Source: Flavobacterium lipolyticum
Lineage (GTDB): Bacteria; Bacteroidota; Bacteroidia; Flavobacteriales; Flavobacteriaceae
Length of the DNA stretch: 64,000 bases
Assembly: GCF_020905335.1 (NCBI RefSeq)
Contig: NZ_JAJJMN010000002.1
Coordinates: forward strand, 744,001-808,000
Direction of reading: 5' to 3'
Positions within the stretch are counted from its first letter, which is position 1. Each line of letters starts with the position of its first letter. Both the position numbers and the translations under genes were made by a program. Shown here one piece after another: positions 52,587 to 63,551 of this stretch. The notes below the pieces were generated by a model. The model worked only from the letters and a program-made list of their open reading frames with translations, ran no database searches and had not been told where the DNA came from.

Positions 52587-52619
52587 AAAAAAAGGAGCCA
52601 CTTTTCAATGACTCCTTTT
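52587..52619 (-). terminator. terminator of the B12-riboswitch operon
   Basis: On the reverse strand AAAAGGAGTCA and TGGCTCCTTTT pair around a short loop, followed by a run of seven T. It lies 19 bp after the DUF4465 gene stop. Confidence 0.75.
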
Positions 52620-52637
52620 CGATATTAAATTTTAGTA

Positions 52638-53585
52638 TTATTGAATTCTTTTTACAGACAGCTTGTCTAAACAGAAGTAAGCCGCAGTATTCATTCCGTA
52701 TACGGGATGTGAATCTGTTGAAGCCATTTGAAAAACAAGGTATTTTACATCTCCCAGACCTTGAAGTGCTGTAGCACTTACATTTATCCATCCTGTTGGC
52801 ATTACTAAAGAACCTCCTGTGTAATCAGCCAGTGATTGTGTAATTGGTGCAGTAATAGTTCCGCTTGAATCTACTCCGTAAATTAACAATTCAAAGTGAT
52901 CTCCTGAAGAAAAGGCCTGAGCAAAACCGTCTCCATACAAACAACCATAATAAGGCCATGGGTGCATGTTGATTTTTAATCCTTTTACATTATACAATCC
53001 TGTATTTCCAATTTTAATCCAGTTAGAGAAACTTGTCTCACTAAAAGTAGTTCCCTGTGGATTTTTAGGATCTGTATAACTTGACCAGTAGGCTACGATG
53101 TACGGATCTCCTGTTGTACCCGGAGTACCTGCCGCAATAGTAGAAGAAGTTCCGAAACCACTTCCTGCCATAGTACCCCACTGATTGGCTACCCAACCGT
53201 TAGATCCGCCGGTACCTGCTCCTGAACCGTAATTGGTAATATCATTTACATTGGATACAATAAAACCATCCCAATAGTTGTAACCTGATGATGTTCCGCT
53301 ATGTGAAAATTTAAATATGTCAACTGTTAAATTGGTATTTGCCACATAAGTATTTTGCCAATACTTCCCTCCTGTTGTTGATGTTCCGCTGGTCAATAAA
53401 GAACTTGTCAGGTTAAGCGTAGAAGTCGTTCCTATCGAAGGATCGGTCACTGCGCTTTTAGAAGTTAAGCCTGAGCTTTTAACCGCTGCACTGCCGCTTT
53501 CGCTATTTAATAGATTTTCATCATTGCTACAGGACGAAAGTCCCAGAATCAAACCTACTGTCAAAAAATAAAGTACTTTTTTCAT
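52638..53585 (-). CDS. DUF4465 lipoprotein, last gene of the B12-riboswitch operon
   Basis: The lipoprotein signal MKKVLYFLTVGLILGLSSC has its lipidated Cys at 19. After a Ser/Thr/Gly-rich spacer of about 45 residues comes a DUF4465 domain (YNYWDGFIVSNVNDITNY to FCLDKLSVKRIQ), a beta-sandwich type common in surface proteins. From memory, DUF4465-type lipoproteins occur in B12 uptake loci of gut Bacteroides (BtuH-like); that link should be verified. Its place in a riboswitch-controlled operon fits a surface B12-binding role. Confidence 0.85.
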   Translation of the reverse strand: MKKVLYFLTVGLILGLSSCSNDENLLNSESGSAAVKSSGLTSKSAVTDPSIGTTSTLNLTSSLLTSGTSTTGGKYWQNTYVANTNLTVDIFKFSHSGTSSGYNYWDGFIVSNVNDITNYGSGAGTGGSNGWVANQWGTMAGSGFGTSSTIAAGTPGTTGDPYIVAYWSSYTDPKNPQGTTFSETSFSNWIKIGNTGLYNVKGLKINMHPWPYYGCLYGDGFAQAFSSGDHFELLIYGVDSSGTITAPITQSLADYTGGSLVMPTGWINVSATALQGLGDVKYLVFQMASTDSHPVYGMNTAAYFCLDKLSVKRIQ

Positions 53586-53650
53586 GATTTATAAAAATTT
53601 TGGATTAATATTCTTGGTTGATTAATAAATAGTTTTATTCCGCTTTTCGA

Positions 53651-54889
53651 TTATTTTCCTGCGGCAAAATTCAAATCTTCTACCTGTTTAAAGGAGTTCG
53701 TAACCAGGTCTAATGCGCCAATCTCTGTGAACGTAGACACGTATACCTTTACGAAATCGACCCCGGGAAGATGTACTTTATTACCATTACCATCTACAGC
53801 CCAACTAATGTCTATTGAAGGATCTTTGATTCCGCCATAACCCCATTCAAAAGTTCCAACATTGAATGCTGTACCTTCTCCATCGCTAATATCTTTTGTC
53901 GCCAAATTGACTTTTGTTCCTTTTAATGTGTAAGAATCACCAAGCCATTGTGGGTAATAATTATAACGTCTCCATTTTTTTGTTCTGGTGATAAAACCTG
54001 AAGCCGTTTTATTACTTGCCCATTTAAGATATTCCTTGTCGAACTGCCAATCGTACTTTCCTGCTACGGCAGTTTTACTTGGGTCCGGCTTGTAATACGT
54101 CACCTCATAGTTCTTCACTGTAGTCGATTTATAATACTCACTTCCGGCTATTTCGTACCACTCATTATCCTCTGCAATCCCATTTTTATTGGCATCGTAA
54201 GCCACCATAATACTCACAGGAGAAAACTTTGAAGCATTTGAAACTGTATTCATCTGAACTGTAAAATCGCGTTTGCCATAAGCATTGATCACCGTGTGAT
54301 CGAATTTTGTTACGATATAACCACCGAAAGTTCCCAGATCAACAAGAGATCCGTCAGCCAAAATAGCCTGTGCATTCTCTATCGCTTCCGCTTTCGTTGC
54401 AAACTCAAAACCGTCATTGTTATAATGCGGAGCAGGTACATAATCGATAATGGAAAGCGCTTTCGAAGTATACGTTTTACCGGTTTCGGCAACTGTAACT
54501 TTAGTAGAAGCCTGTTTTACCAACTTATTCAGCGTTACGGTAAAATCTACAGCATAACTTAGTGCTTTTGGCGCTATAAACTTCAAGGTCTTACTGTCGC
54601 CGATAACAGAATCTTTAGCCACTCCGTCTTTTCCGGTTACTTTTAAAGTCCATTTGTATTGGGCAACAGCACCATTTGCATTTTCAATCGTTACTTCCGG
54701 ATCAATCGCTACAACGTTGTATCGCTCCGTTGTAAAATCTGCTTGCAATTTTATAGTAAGAGTTGGATCTTTAATCGGCTCCGGTTTAGGTTCTTCAATT
54801 ACAGGCTCCGGCTTTGCATCATCATTGCTACAATTGTAAAAAGAACAAACAATGGCGAGGTACAAACTATATTTTATAAACTTTTTCAT
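53651..54889 (-). CDS. PKD-like surface lipoprotein, paralogue 3
   Basis: The lipobox FYNC gives lipidated Cys20, followed by a Pro/Glu-rich spacer. The mature protein has a PKD/Ig-like N-terminal domain (VAIDPEVTIENANGAVAQYKWTLKV) and a second domain with DYVPAPHYNNDGF, LGTFGGYIVTKFDHTVIN and an EF-hand-like loop DANKNGIAEDNEWYEI. It shares this architecture with the next two genes upstream, so all three arose by tandem duplication. It lies 12 bp after 54902-56143 and 65 bp before the DUF4465 gene. The ligand is unknown. Confidence 0.8.
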   Translation of the reverse strand: MKKFIKYSLYLAIVCSFYNCSNDDAKPEPVIEEPKPEPIKDPTLTIKLQADFTTERYNVVAIDPEVTIENANGAVAQYKWTLKVTGKDGVAKDSVIGDSKTLKFIAPKALSYAVDFTVTLNKLVKQASTKVTVAETGKTYTSKALSIIDYVPAPHYNNDGFEFATKAEAIENAQAILADGSLVDLGTFGGYIVTKFDHTVINAYGKRDFTVQMNTVSNASKFSPVSIMVAYDANKNGIAEDNEWYEIAGSEYYKSTTVKNYEVTYYKPDPSKTAVAGKYDWQFDKEYLKWASNKTASGFITRTKKWRRYNYYPQWLGDSYTLKGTKVNLATKDISDGEGTAFNVGTFEWGYGGIKDPSIDISWAVDGNGNKVHLPGVDFVKVYVSTFTEIGALDLVTNSFKQVEDLNFAAGK

Positions 54890-54901
54890 ATTTTTCTCTT
54901 C

Positions 54902-56143
54902 TTACTTTTTTAGATTGTATTTTTTAATTATTTGAAGATCTGCAGCTCCTGAGAATCGCGTAGCCATAGACGACTGCTGGTGGCAAAGTCCCATTGGTTC
55001 GCTGACACAGTTCACTACTTTGATAAAATGAATTCCTGGAAGATTTGCTTTATTTCCATTCTTGTCTACCGCCCAGTCGATATCAATATCAGGGCTTTTG
55101 GCATTTACGTATCCCCATTCCGGAGCCTCAAAATTCCATAAGGTAGTTTGCCCCGGACGTACTGCTGCGAAATTTACGTTTAGCTTCGTTCCTTCGTAAA
55201 CAGCTGTATTTTGAGTATCCCAGGCTGGATAATACTCTTTCTTAGTTTTAGACCTTGGTAAAAAGTAGGTTTGAGATTGGTTGTTCTCGCAATAAAGATG
55301 CTCACGATCTAAAAAAGGATCATTTGGACCGCTTACTACTACTTTCTTACCGGCCGCAGGTTTATAGTAGGTAATTTTAAAATTCTTAACCGTGTTTTCT
55401 TTAGCATGCTGACTTCCTATGATTTCATACCATTCGTCTTCATCGGGTTTTCCATTGCCATTTTTATCATAAGCAACATAAATTAAACCCGGAGCCGGAG
55501 GATTGGCTTTATCCGTTAAATCTGCTCCGTAAACTCTGAAGTCTTTTTTTCCTGAAAGATTAACTACCATGTGATCAAATCCAACCACAATTGAACCTCC
55601 AAAACCTCCTAAATCGATTGGATAACCAACGCTGGTTTCGCTAATTCTTCCCAATGCTACCCTCATAACATCTGCTTTCACAAATCCGTCTTTGTATAAA
55701 TCATTGGCAAACATTCCGGGTGCCGGATTAAAATCCTGAATACTTGTTATGTAAGGATTGTAATTTTGAGTCTCATTTATCACATTCACTATGGTGGCAC
55801 TTGTCCCTTTTTTATCTCCTTCAGTAACATTTAAGGTTAGTTCATAGGCACCGGGATATAAAGCCACAAATCGTAAATCTTTTGTAGTTCCTACAATCGA
55901 ATCTTTAGTCTGATTGACCGGATTTTTTTTAAGTACCCATTGATAATTTGGATTACTGGTTTCAGCTGAAGCTGTAATATTCAAAACTTTAAAGGTGTTT
56001 ACTTCAAATTTATCCTGAAGCTTTACTGCTATTGGTATGGCGAGTCCTTCTCCAGAGTTGGCATCATTTTTATCGTCATCGCTGCATCCGGTAAATACCG
56101 CTGCAAAAGCCAATAATAATAAATGGGCAAAGTTTTTTTTCAT
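54902..56143 (-). CDS. PKD-like surface lipoprotein, paralogue 2
   Basis: The lipobox FTGC gives Cys20. The PKD/Ig-like domain (NITASAETSNPNYQWVLKKNP) precedes the conserved block FNPAPGMFANDL, LGGFGGSIVVGFDHMVVN, KKDFRVYG and the loop DKNGNGKPDEDEWYEI. The C-terminus DIDWAVDKNGNKANLPGIHFIKV is nearly the same in all three paralogues. It is 413 residues long. It sits between its two paralogues with gaps of 12 and 43 bp, in one operon behind the cobalamin riboswitch. Confidence 0.8.
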   Translation of the reverse strand: MKKNFAHLLLLAFAAVFTGCSDDDKNDANSGEGLAIPIAVKLQDKFEVNTFKVLNITASAETSNPNYQWVLKKNPVNQTKDSIVGTTKDLRFVALYPGAYELTLNVTEGDKKGTSATIVNVINETQNYNPYITSIQDFNPAPGMFANDLYKDGFVKADVMRVALGRISETSVGYPIDLGGFGGSIVVGFDHMVVNLSGKKDFRVYGADLTDKANPPAPGLIYVAYDKNGNGKPDEDEWYEIIGSQHAKENTVKNFKITYYKPAAGKKVVVSGPNDPFLDREHLYCENNQSQTYFLPRSKTKKEYYPAWDTQNTAVYEGTKLNVNFAAVRPGQTTLWNFEAPEWGYVNAKSPDIDIDWAVDKNGNKANLPGIHFIKVVNCVSEPMGLCHQQSSMATRFSGAADLQIIKKYNLKK

Positions 56144-56186
56144 AATTCCTGATATAATAATTTAGTTTAATACACTTTTGAATGGG

Positions 56187-57476
56187 TTATCGCGTAGGAA
56201 TGCTTTCTCCTGAAAGATGCAAATCTGTCGCCCCCATTATTTCTGTCGAAGTTTCTCCGAGCCATCCCGCCTGCTGATTAAGGCCATTGTACACTTTCAC
56301 AAAATCGATTCCGGGAAGCATTACTTTGTTTCCTTTTTCGTCCACAGCCCAGTTAATATCTATGGCCGAATCATCATCATTGTTTGGAGCATTATCTGCA
56401 TATCCGTATAAAAAAGCATACTGCACAAAATAACTTCCCGTTCCGCTTTCATCAACTGCGTTATCGGATAGTCTTGTTCCTTTATAAGTGATAGAAGATT
56501 GGTCTTTAAGCCATTTTGGCCAGTAATCTAAAGAATGATTGTAAGCATTATTCTGAACCAGATAACCACTTTTCCCCTGATTGTCTTTCCATAAAATATA
56601 CTCCATATCAACAAAACCTACTGTACCTGTAGTTCCGCCCGACACCGGAATTTTATTGGGATCAGGTCGGTAATACGTTATTTCATAATTCTGAATCGTT
56701 TTTGGCATCTTATGCCCACCGCCTTCTATCTCGTACCACTGATCGTCCGGAAGTCCGTTTTTATTTGTATCGTAAGCAACCATAATTACTCCTGCTTCAC
56801 TGCTTCCGCCGCGCATGGTACTGTTCGGATTTGGATTAGCCTCTGCCCAGAATGCATTACCCAGAATTCTGAAATCACGTTTACCCTTAACATTAACAAT
56901 GGTATGATCGAATCCAAAAACAACATAACCGCCAAAAGCCCCCAATGAAACCAGATCACCGGTTTTCTTAGCCAGATAAGTATTGGCTCTTGATAAAATT
57001 CTTTCAGGAGTATCTCCGTCATTAGCAATAGGCAGATCGTTTACAAACTGCCCGGGTGCCGGTTTAAATTCAAATACTTTTGAGATATAGGTTTTATACT
57101 CCTTCGTTTCTTTTGTAACGGTAACAACTACTTTTTGAGTTTGTACACTTCCTTTGTCATTTACAGTAACGGCCAATTCATAGACTCCTGCTTCTGCTGC
57201 CGCAAATAAAAGTTCCTTTGCTGTAGTAGTACTTAGTGCATAACTTTCTGAAGATGCTTTTGTGATGGTCCAATTGTAAGTAGCTTCTGCTGTTGCGCTG
57301 ATCGTTGGATTTAAAGTCGTAATTGTAAATCTCTGCATACTAAAAGCTAAATCTGAACTAACAGGCGTCGGATTGCTATTTTCATTTGATGCATTATCAT
57401 CAGAACAATTGGTTAAGGAGAGTACTGCAATAAGCAACAATAAGGATTGGCAGTTTTTGAAAATAGGATGGTACAT
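56187..57476 (-). CDS. PKD-like surface lipoprotein, paralogue 1
   Basis: The first large gene after the riboswitch encodes 429 residues. The lipobox LTNC gives Cys24. It has an N-terminal PKD/Ig-like domain (about 45-120), then FKPAPGQFVNDLPI, LGAFGGYVVFGFDHTIVN and the EF-hand-like loop at 236-247 (DTNKNGLPDDQW). The C-terminal block is DINWAVDEKGNKVMLPGIDFVKV. Proteins of this kind are annotated as cell surface proteins near B12 uptake genes in some Bacteroidota, by my recollection. Surface display is inferred from the lipobox and domains. Confidence 0.8.
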   Translation of the reverse strand: MYHPIFKNCQSLLLLIAVLSLTNCSDDNASNENSNPTPVSSDLAFSMQRFTITTLNPTISATAEATYNWTITKASSESYALSTTTAKELLFAAAEAGVYELAVTVNDKGSVQTQKVVVTVTKETKEYKTYISKVFEFKPAPGQFVNDLPIANDGDTPERILSRANTYLAKKTGDLVSLGAFGGYVVFGFDHTIVNVKGKRDFRILGNAFWAEANPNPNSTMRGGSSEAGVIMVAYDTNKNGLPDDQWYEIEGGGHKMPKTIQNYEITYYRPDPNKIPVSGGTTGTVGFVDMEYILWKDNQGKSGYLVQNNAYNHSLDYWPKWLKDQSSITYKGTRLSDNAVDESGTGSYFVQYAFLYGYADNAPNNDDDSAIDINWAVDEKGNKVMLPGIDFVKVYNGLNQQAGWLGETSTEIMGATDLHLSGESIPTR

Positions 57477-57553
57477 GTGGTATTGTTTAGGTTGGTAGTA
57501 GTAAAAGCAGGAGAAAATGAAGGAATAACCAAAGAAGTTTTAATTAAAAGCCT

Positions 57554-57826
57554 TCAACAGAGCGCAATGTTATCCTTATAAGCGTACACAATCCGGCACC
57601 GCCAAACGTCCCTGGAATTGAGATGATTTTCTATTAGAACAGGATTAAAATAAGGGAAGAAACCGACACATAATGCATTCAAAAAATCCCGACTCCATAC
57701 CGATTTCCGTTTCAGAGATGATGGTCTCAAAGAGAAAAAGCAACTATACAACACTCCCGACTGAAGCAGCATAGAAGCAAAAACGATAACAATCAATAAG
57801 AATTCTCTTTTTGTATGATACATCAC
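57554..57826 (-). CDS. doubtful 90-aa frame between riboswitch and lipoproteins
   Basis: The frame starts MMYHTKREFLLIVIVFASMLLQS, which is like a signal peptide or membrane anchor, but the remainder is Cys/Phe/Arg-rich and matches nothing I know. It occupies the position where a TonB receptor gene would be expected in a B12 operon. It may be a small exported protein or the relic of a deleted receptor gene. There is no terminator between it and the riboswitch. Confidence 0.3.
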   Translation of the reverse strand: MMYHTKREFLLIVIVFASMLLQSGVLYSCFFSLRPSSLKRKSVWSRDFLNALCVGFFPYFNPVLIENHLNSRDVWRCRIVYAYKDNIALC

Positions 57827-57956
57827 TAATTGAATTAAGAAAACTCCGGGATGTATAAATCAAAAAAGCAATAAGAGAGAATCCCGTCATAAAAAATGAC
57901 AGGTTCGTTTATTGTTGTTCAACTTTATTCCACGAAAGTCTTAAACTATGTGATTG

Positions 57957-58117
57957 TGGCAGGTCTCCTGACTTGTTCCATCTTTAAAACAGCCTTCTCA
58001 TCCCGCAAAGCGAGGCAATGGCATGAGTAACGTTTAAAGACTTATACAGAACTTACAGTAGCGGGTCTGCTCAGGATTTACACCTGATTCCCTTTTAACC
58101 ATTTTTTCTTAAGAAAA
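57957..58117 (-). ncRNA. cobalamin (AdoCbl-type) riboswitch
   Basis: Read on the reverse strand, the conserved order is present: GGGAATCAGGTGTAAATCC (58092-58074), then CCCGCTACTGTAAG (58065-58052), several stems, and at the 3' end the B12 box AGTCAGGAGACCTGCC (57973-57958). These are the consensus elements of the cobalamin riboswitch, which represses downstream genes when corrinoid is plentiful. A TAnnTTTG promoter is seen at 58144-58137. No clear terminator follows, so control is probably at translation, as is usual in this phylum. Confidence 0.95.
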
Positions 58118-58136
58118 AACAGACCAAAATCTGGCG

Positions 58137-58144
58137 CAAAGATA
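58137..58144 (-). promoter_or_regulatory. promoter -7 element of the riboswitch operon
   Basis: TATCTTTG on the reverse strand fits TAnnTTTG and would start the transcript about 12-15 nt before the riboswitch core. No -33 TTG is found at standard spacing. Confidence 0.5.
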
Positions 58145-62363: not shown

Positions 62364-63551
62364 CTATCGAATCAATTTTAAAAATGCACTATACACATCA
62401 TCTTTAATTGAGGTTCGCAAATAGACTTCGTTTTCGTCTTTGGTTTTATATTCAAACTGAATCAAAGCCGCATCAGAATAATAAAAAAAGTAATCATCGC
62501 CCAAAAATTCAAGATTTGAAATAGGTCTCGTTGATAATTTGTATTCAAATGCTACCTCACCATTGGTAATGTCCAATTGAAAGAGCTTACTTTTACGAGT
62601 GTATCCCCAAATATTATCACTTTCTTCGACCATATACTCCACATTATCGGCTTTAAAATCCCTTTTCCAAATTTGAGTTCCTGTTTTTGAATCTACAGCA
62701 TATATCGAAGAAACTTCGGGGCCTTGTGCGGCAAAATATAGCTTCTTGTCTTTGCAAAATATACGCTCCTTAATATTGTTCTGAGTTTCCTCCAATTTAA
62801 ACTGCCACAGAACCTCTAGTTTATCAGGATTTAGAGCAAAAACTACATTTTTTTCATTTGCTGTAAAGATAGTTTCTCCATCTGTTACCAATTTTCCGCG
62901 CATGGCTTCCTCAAAACTTTTTTGAATAAGAAGTTTTCCTGAATTAGCTTCAAAACTATAAACAGAAGTTCCGCTTTGAATAAAAACTTTGTTATTGAAT
63001 AAAAGAACCGGACTTTCATTATTTTCAGCATCTAGTTTATGATTCCATAGCAAACCGCCAGTTTTAATATCAAGTGCATAAAGATTCCCGTTTTGAGAGG
63101 TTACCAATAATTTTCCCTCATTTATAACCGGAATCTGATTTTTCAGGATGATCTGATCTGTGCTATTCCCCAGTCTTGATTTCCAAAAAACAGCACCAGT
63201 CTGATTATCAATCGCAAAAATTTCTCCGTTAATAAAAGGAACATACACTACTCCATCCTGCAATGTGACAGCATTTGCACACAACTCCGTAAAAGAATCT
63301 GTTGCTTTTACAGTCCAGTTAATTTTTTCGGACTCTAGATTAAAGGAAAAAAGAGAACCGTCATAATCGTAAATCAATATCGACTCTTTATCCAATGCAA
63401 CTTTCGCCAACGGTTTTAGCACTTTATGAGTAACTTTATCGCTAATATTGCCCGCAGCTTCCATTTTACCTGGTACTGAAACCGTTTGTACTTGTCCAAA
63501 AATATTGGTAACGGCACACACCAATAAAAGAGTTATTAGATTTTTTTTCAT
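62364..63551 (-). CDS. exported PQQ-like beta-propeller repeat protein
   Basis: A signal peptide (MKKNLITLLLVCAVTNIFGQ) precedes several propeller blades with the PQQ-type pattern: IFAIDNQTGAVFWKSRLG, LYALDIKTGGLLWNHKLD, VFALNPDKLEVLWQFKL, IYAVDSKTGTQIWKRDF. PQQ-like propellers without a catalytic domain are usually scaffolds or ligand-binding proteins, as with BamB. It is 395 residues long and shows no lipobox, so it is probably periplasmic. It is not near a quinoprotein dehydrogenase gene here. Confidence 0.88.
   Translation of the reverse strand: MKKNLITLLLVCAVTNIFGQVQTVSVPGKMEAAGNISDKVTHKVLKPLAKVALDKESILIYDYDGSLFSFNLESEKINWTVKATDSFTELCANAVTLQDGVVYVPFINGEIFAIDNQTGAVFWKSRLGNSTDQIILKNQIPVINEGKLLVTSQNGNLYALDIKTGGLLWNHKLDAENNESPVLLFNNKVFIQSGTSVYSFEANSGKLLIQKSFEEAMRGKLVTDGETIFTANEKNVVFALNPDKLEVLWQFKLEETQNNIKERIFCKDKKLYFAAQGPEVSSIYAVDSKTGTQIWKRDFKADNVEYMVEESDNIWGYTRKSKLFQLDITNGEVAFEYKLSTRPISNLEFLGDDYFFYYSDAALIQFEYKTKDENEVYLRTSIKDDVYSAFLKLIR

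Follow-up and report, generated by a model that had tools for sequence, protein, structure and literature searches.

Among surface lipoproteins of the Bacteroidota, BtuH2 is reported to bind B12, its cobalamin contacts being Q333, N399, F401, H476, Y510, W511, W577 and L578 (PMC8941943), and proteins of family DUF4465 are likewise reported to bind B12 (PMC12751083, PMC13398666). In 313 gut species, more than 80% of btuH genes were reported to lie in one operon with btuB (Putnam et al., PMC8941943), so that btuH operons lacking btuB are already known to exist. For Bacteroides, the use of surface B12-binding lipoproteins by the BtuBG complex of another locus has been raised as a question (PMC10404256). 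Here we describe a btuB-less operon in a 64,000-nucleotide stretch of the Flavobacterium lipolyticum genome (the window), part of contig C2 in an assembly of 5.77 Mb in 7 contigs. Its order on the minus strand is a cobalamin riboswitch, a 464-base leader, three lipoprotein genes that we call A, B and C, a DUF4465 gene and a terminator-like hairpin (Table 1). Most probably, it belongs to a known kind of cobamide-uptake locus of the Bacteroidota and has lost btuB-btuG by deletion, and its lipoproteins serve the BtuB1-BtuG1 complex of a second operon.

The riboswitch match covers the whole of model RF00174 (1-189) and scores 99.4 bits, the gathering score being 31.5, and the B12 box AGTCAGGAGACCTGCC lies at 57973-57958, just where a first-pass annotation, made from the letters alone, had put it. 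That annotation had also described an operon of surface-type lipoproteins, three of them paralogues with a common architecture, and both descriptions are borne out: B and C are 36% and 37% identical to A and have sequence blocks in common with it like those it named, the DUF4465 protein matches PF14717, and a permissive lipobox pattern is found in 23/23 A, 23/23 B and 21/22 C sequences from the genomes introduced below. All three proteins are homologous to the C-terminal B12-binding domains of BtuH2 (7biz) and BtuGH (8blw), with E-values from 1e-24 to 2.9e-70. The PKD-like part of A is weak in Pfam (K319L-like_PKD, 23.6 bits, cut-off 27), and in the models of B and C it is a well-scored beta region preceding the C-terminal domain. 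Structure comparison with BtuH, which had been proposed as a check, gives 7biz as the top Foldseek match of the AlphaFold2 models of both B and C (predicted local distance difference test 84.4 and 88.3; E 1.8e-28; template modelling score 0.55-0.56), with a root-mean-square deviation of 13-14 over the whole chain, too large for the domains to fit together as a single rigid unit. The gene products closest to B are found in Pedobacter (68-75%) and Dysgonomonas (50-51%), which suggests that the B lineage is an old split; the closest named matches of C are Flavobacterium proteins. By homology, A, B and C belong to the BtuH family, and that family is not new. An undescribed family for the lipoproteins was rejected on the matches to BtuH2, BtuGH and DUF4465 structures in the Protein Data Bank (PDB), and this part of the earlier interpretation is not supported, given also the published B12 binding of DUF4465 proteins.

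The DUF4465 protein matches PDB entries 4jqr (E 3.3e-15) and 9fct (E 5.6e-4), and the HI-loop motif NTAAYF, with the B12-binding tyrosine position, is present in 22/22 orthologues. Both this protein and A are predicted to bind B12. The DUF4465 gene, A and B are all under strong purifying selection, with ratios of nonsynonymous to synonymous substitution (dN/dS) of 0.04-0.08. Two irregularities were seen among DUF4465 genes of relatives: G340 has an extra partial match (residues 1-90) next to the full one (L090:2011-3413), and the gene of G042 (L045:14160-15101), which may be interrupted, has two open stretches, one starting inside the protein.

The window encodes neither a BtuB homologue (E 1e-8) nor a FecCD permease, and tblastn of the window with BtuB1, BtuB2, BtuG1 and BtuG2 returned one 35-residue match only (E 0.01), in agreement with the receptor-less layout first noted. 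Both BtuB matches of the genome, and its only FecCD match, are on contig C1. A search of the genome for a second riboswitch with btuB, also proposed earlier, finds two further cobalamin riboswitches, each 5' of a btuB-btuG pair. The second riboswitch locus, on C1, contains btuB1-btuG1, a BtuH gene (btuH1) and a propeller-like gene, while the third contains btuB2-btuG2 and the FecCD permease, along with salvage genes and BtuF- and BtuD-like frames that were assigned by eye; metH is present in the genome as well. The gap of about 700 bases between btuG1 and btuH1 (L004:5175-5860; G000:C1:407174-407859) contains a dispersed repeat that is matched in part at 7 other places in the genome (82-93% identity), and the contigs of two relatives, G374 and G159, end near this spot. 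The propeller-like protein behind btuH1 (756 residues; L004:1667-3937) resembles the gene that takes the place of BtuK1 in B. faecis; it ends in what we take to be a type 9 secretion sorting tail and is possibly a secreted B12-binding propeller.

The origin of the layout is seen in relatives. We searched 398 genomes of the same genus with B, scoring up to four candidates per genome; a BtuH-like match was obtained in 74, a close orthologue of B (64-100% identity) in 23, and all 23 neighbourhoods were inspected, with supplementary searches for btuH1 in 16 genomes and for BtuB in 12. The order riboswitch-btuB-btuG-A-B-C-DUF4465 is found in 18 of the 23 (in G391 it is cut after B by a contig end), and a riboswitch is present at the cassette in all 22 genomes besides that of the window. 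The five in which btuBG is absent between the riboswitch and A are the window genome (G000), G374 of the same species, and the relatives G159, G396 and G279; G000, G374 and G159 are close kin. On a tree of A, B, C and DUF4465 combined, these five form two clades, one beside G276 (support 87) and the other beside G305 and G338 (support 100), all three of which have btuBG. Two separate clades imply at least two losses, provided that the pair was not regained. Gene order in the relatives, together with the btuB start kept in the leader, points to a deletion of btuBG from the window operon and speaks against a separate origin.

Each of the 23 genomes has exactly one BtuB1 (80-100% identity), and 22 have a weaker BtuB2-like match (27-31%). 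Seven have both the A-B-C cassette and the second cassette, that of btuH1; in the other 16, no btuH1 orthologue was found. For the second cassette we inspected 16 loci, 7 from the two-cassette genomes and 9 chosen others; a riboswitch scan of 10 of 15 such loci gave 8 matches, and none in two loci that end at a contig edge. Of the two-cassette genomes, G000, G396 and G279 carry the btuBG pair in the second cassette, and G276 and G284 carry it in the A-B-C cassette, their second cassette being without one. This distribution suggests that lipoproteins encoded in two operons use a single BtuBG, and we infer a hand-over of cobamides between the operons; the deletion of btuBG would have been tolerable because the two lipoprotein cassettes shared one receptor. 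On a tree of 30 rows, 9/27 of whose inner branches are weak, btuBG sequences of one layout are intermixed with those of the other, so the pair may be exchangeable between cassettes. The arrangement suggests that the question of inter-locus use is to be answered with yes, BtuB2 still being an alternative partner.

A second line of evidence for deletion is the leader itself. Aligned with the leader of the btuB1 riboswitch on C1, it is 89% identical over 337 bases through the GTGATG start, and the alignment continues through the signal peptide; a search of the genome with the leader gave no match beyond that of its first 121 bases to the btuB1 leader. From the GTGATG start, the frame is open for 90 codons in G000, G374 and G159, for 98 in G396 and for 97 in G279; its end lies 76-106 bases 5' of A. 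Scored against a profile of the BtuB N-terminus, the whole frame does better than 500/500 shuffles in all five genomes. From residue 27 on, this is still true of G396 and G279, but 248/500 shuffles score as high as this tail in G374 and 66/500 in G159. The dN/dS of the frame is 0.74 between G000 and G159 (tail 0.61) and 0.34, near saturation, between G000 and G396, well above that of its neighbours, and on these values an ordinary conserved gene was rejected; no candidate for a known small protein was found. The alignment of start and signal peptide, the profile scores and the high dN/dS together show a btuB remnant that is fast-changing yet open. Under a first-order Markov model, given open first 24 codons, the chance of so long a frame is 0.027 for G000, 0.019 for G159, 0.0036 for G396 and 0.004 for G279, figures that include close kin. 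That the remnant is open (90-98 codons) in all five genomes despite its fast divergence looks new. We would guess that its translation, beginning at the start codon under riboswitch control, may preserve the message as far as A.

A different kind of change is seen in the cobalamin-contact residues. In A, Q333, N399, F401, Y510, W577 and L578 are identical in 23/23 sequences, with W511 replaced by Phe or Tyr and H476 by Asn, and the second-cassette BtuH keeps the same six contacts plus W511 in 16/16; the column matched to H476 shifts between the two alignments used. In B (23 rows), the residues at 333, 399, 401, 510, 511, 577 and 578 are Met, Gly/Ala, Leu/Val/Ile, Leu, Trp, Leu and Cys, nearly fixed, so that W511 is the sole BtuH2 contact kept. 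C (22 rows) has mostly Tyr at 333, Phe/Tyr at 511 and Ala/Ser at 577, is variable elsewhere and keeps no contact throughout, N399 being present in 9/22 rows, that of the window included. Conservation was compared without G374 and G159, which are near-identical, over 21 A, 21 B, 20 C and 14 second-cassette rows: the eight pocket columns of C are less conserved than the domain (0.54 versus 0.80, P 0.0024), while those of B are as conserved as the domain (0.92 versus 0.87). The apparent lack in B and C of most BtuH2 cobalamin contacts, though the genes are conserved, looks new. Loss of binding is not thereby proven, since BtuGH, a known binder, also differs from BtuH2 at 4/8 contact positions.

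Taken together, these features are consistent with a scheme in which scarcity of B12 would permit expression of the operon through the riboswitch; A and the DUF4465 protein would capture cobamides at the cell surface and pass them to the BtuB1-BtuG1 complex, encoded in the second riboswitch operon on C1, and from there they would reach BtuFCD. B and C, BtuH paralogues with a changed cobalamin site, would probably assist the transfer or bind another corrinoid form. The first-pass annotation had thought of a separate corrinoid-capture system lending its lipoproteins to a receptor encoded elsewhere; the lending remains the most likely explanation, but a separate origin does not fit the 18/23 relatives with btuBG in place or the btuB start kept in the leader. 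Its own caveat, a receptor gene moved out of the window by rearrangement, comes close to what appears to have happened, the matching btuB1-btuG1 being on C1. Several observations weigh against loss of btuBG and service to BtuB1. The tail of the window's own remnant is not BtuB-like, only its start is, 226/500 shuffles scoring as high. In G374 and G159 the second cassette is at a contig end, and G000 is the basis for linking it to btuBG. Around the riboswitch, the sequences of the btuBG-less second cassettes in G276 and G284 differ, so these cassettes may have arisen otherwise than by deletion. Lastly, the BtuB2-like match in 22/23 genomes means that the lipoproteins might serve that receptor instead.

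This last point is the basis of an alternative that we consider unlikely, in which the four lipoproteins work with BtuB2-BtuG2 of the third locus, or mainly on shed vesicles. Vesicle-borne B12 delivery in B. thetaiotaomicron is indeed reported to depend on BtuJ1/BtuJ2 (PMC12751083), but A-B-C-DUF4465 stands directly behind genes of the btuB1-btuG1 type in 18/23 genomes, a btuB2-like gene stands between riboswitch and A in 0/23 (locus L047 has one upstream of the riboswitch), and G042 has the cassette but no BtuB2-like match at E 1e-8. G042, with its possibly interrupted DUF4465 gene, is the sole genome of the 23 in this position. As for B and C, the chance that they still bind cobamides in the manner of BtuH via substituted residues, which would make three redundant capture proteins, we put not far short of even: both still match the fold and have the EF-hand-like loop, and the H domain of BtuGH is reported to bind B12 (PMC12751083) yet differs from BtuH2 at half of the contacts. 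Q333, N399, W511 and W577 are nevertheless common to both known binders, and of these B keeps W511 and C none throughout, the less conserved pocket columns of C telling in the same direction. More tentatively, one or both of B and C may have given up cobalamin capture at the BtuH site and taken on a new role in cobamide uptake, such as loading or opening the lid of BtuBG or the binding of some other corrinoid, and the remnant may be kept translatable as a leader frame by which the lipoprotein genes are coupled to the riboswitch. A B12-responsive function that has nothing to do with corrinoid capture is very improbable, as the riboswitch, the linkage to btuBG in relatives and the BtuH and DUF4465 families all point to corrinoids, and nothing beyond the changed pockets of B and C speaks for it.

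Table 1. Features of the operon in the window, in order of transcription
Feature	Position	Strand	Basis
Promoter -7-like element TATCTTTG	58137..58144	-	fits TAnnTTTG
Cobalamin riboswitch aptamer	57941..58143	-	Rfam RF00174, 99.4 bits, E 1.3e-23
8-pair hairpin 3' of aptamer, possible part of expression platform	57883..57903	-	terminator-like site scan
90-codon open frame, btuB 5'-end remnant (GTGATG start and signal peptide), tail diverged	57554..57826	-	leader alignment, profile
A, BtuH-type lipoprotein with PKD-like domain	56187-57476	-	7biz E 8.3e-39, 8blw E 2.9e-70
B, BtuH paralogue, pocket replaced by other conserved residues	54902-56143	-	8blw E 1e-33, 7biz E 7.7e-29
C, BtuH paralogue, pocket replaced and variable	53651-54889	-	8blw E 7.8e-34, 7biz E 1e-24
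DUF4465 (BtuJ-family) lipoprotein	52638-53585	-	PF14717 93 bits, cut-off 25
Terminator-like hairpin and T-run after last gene	52589..52620	-	14-pair stem

The assignment of the promoter element is based on TAnnTTTG, which we take to be the -7 consensus of Bacteroidota promoters; this motif stands at the 5' edge of the aptamer in 23/32 loci compared, several others having near-matches such as TATCTTTA. A hairpin resembling that 3' of the aptamer was seen by eye in several btuB leaders, and terminator-like sites across the region, both hairpins of Table 1 included, are not above chance (5 found versus 4.1 expected). In three relatives, a SAM (S-adenosylmethionine) riboswitch lies 0.2-2.4 kb beyond the end of the DUF4465 gene (L047:14818-14916, L082:15754-15853, L083:179-278), perhaps a link to methionine genes. 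Outside the operon and beyond a kdpA-like gene, the window also encodes a PQQ-type (pyrroloquinoline quinone-type) propeller protein (62364-63551) that scores above the DUF5074 cut-off as well (31.4 versus 27.2 bits).

Flavobacterium genomes with two lipoprotein cassettes but one BtuB1, seven in our sample, look like a natural experiment on inter-locus sharing and make the question testable by simple gene removals, while B and C are a set of family members in which to study the role of BtuH-like proteins that lack the usual cobalamin site. Searches by title and abstract found no paper on the Flavobacterium version of the operon, most subscription journals being outside their coverage.

Compared with known systems, the operon is mostly known parts in an unusual arrangement, and its receptor-less layout is explained by deletion. 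Like BtuH2 (7biz) and the H domain of BtuGH (8blw), its BtuH-type proteins have a PKD/Ig-like N-terminal part, the same C-terminal domain and a riboswitch operon, and A and the second-cassette BtuH keep Q333, N399, F401, Y510, W577 and L578; here, by contrast, there are three tandem paralogues, B and C without most contacts, and no btuB in the operon. The DUF4465 protein has the family match, lipobox, riboswitch operon and HI-loop tyrosine of BtuJ (PF14717; 9fct, 9qpm), with NTAAYF where NTPAY and GTPAYF are published, but it matches BtuJ1 only weakly (9fct), and its B12 binding is a prediction. The propeller gene behind btuH1 has its nearest parallel in BtuK1/BtuK2 (BT_1486/1487), being 25% identical (77 bits) to the B. 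faecis gene whose BtuK1 position is assigned by gene order. That reference locus (L117) comes from the best 80 of 450 loci, among which B. thetaiotaomicron does not occur; its BtuK positions encode propeller-like proteins, and BT1487 was solved as a quinoprotein-dehydrogenase-like propeller (4r5o), so B and C are not BtuK (BtuL was outside this comparison). As in the Bacteroides loci with btuB-btuG and btuH, btuJ or btuK, a riboswitch followed by BtuBG and variable lipoproteins is the layout of 18/23 relatives; the window operon differs in that btuBG is absent and the matching pair is found in another operon.

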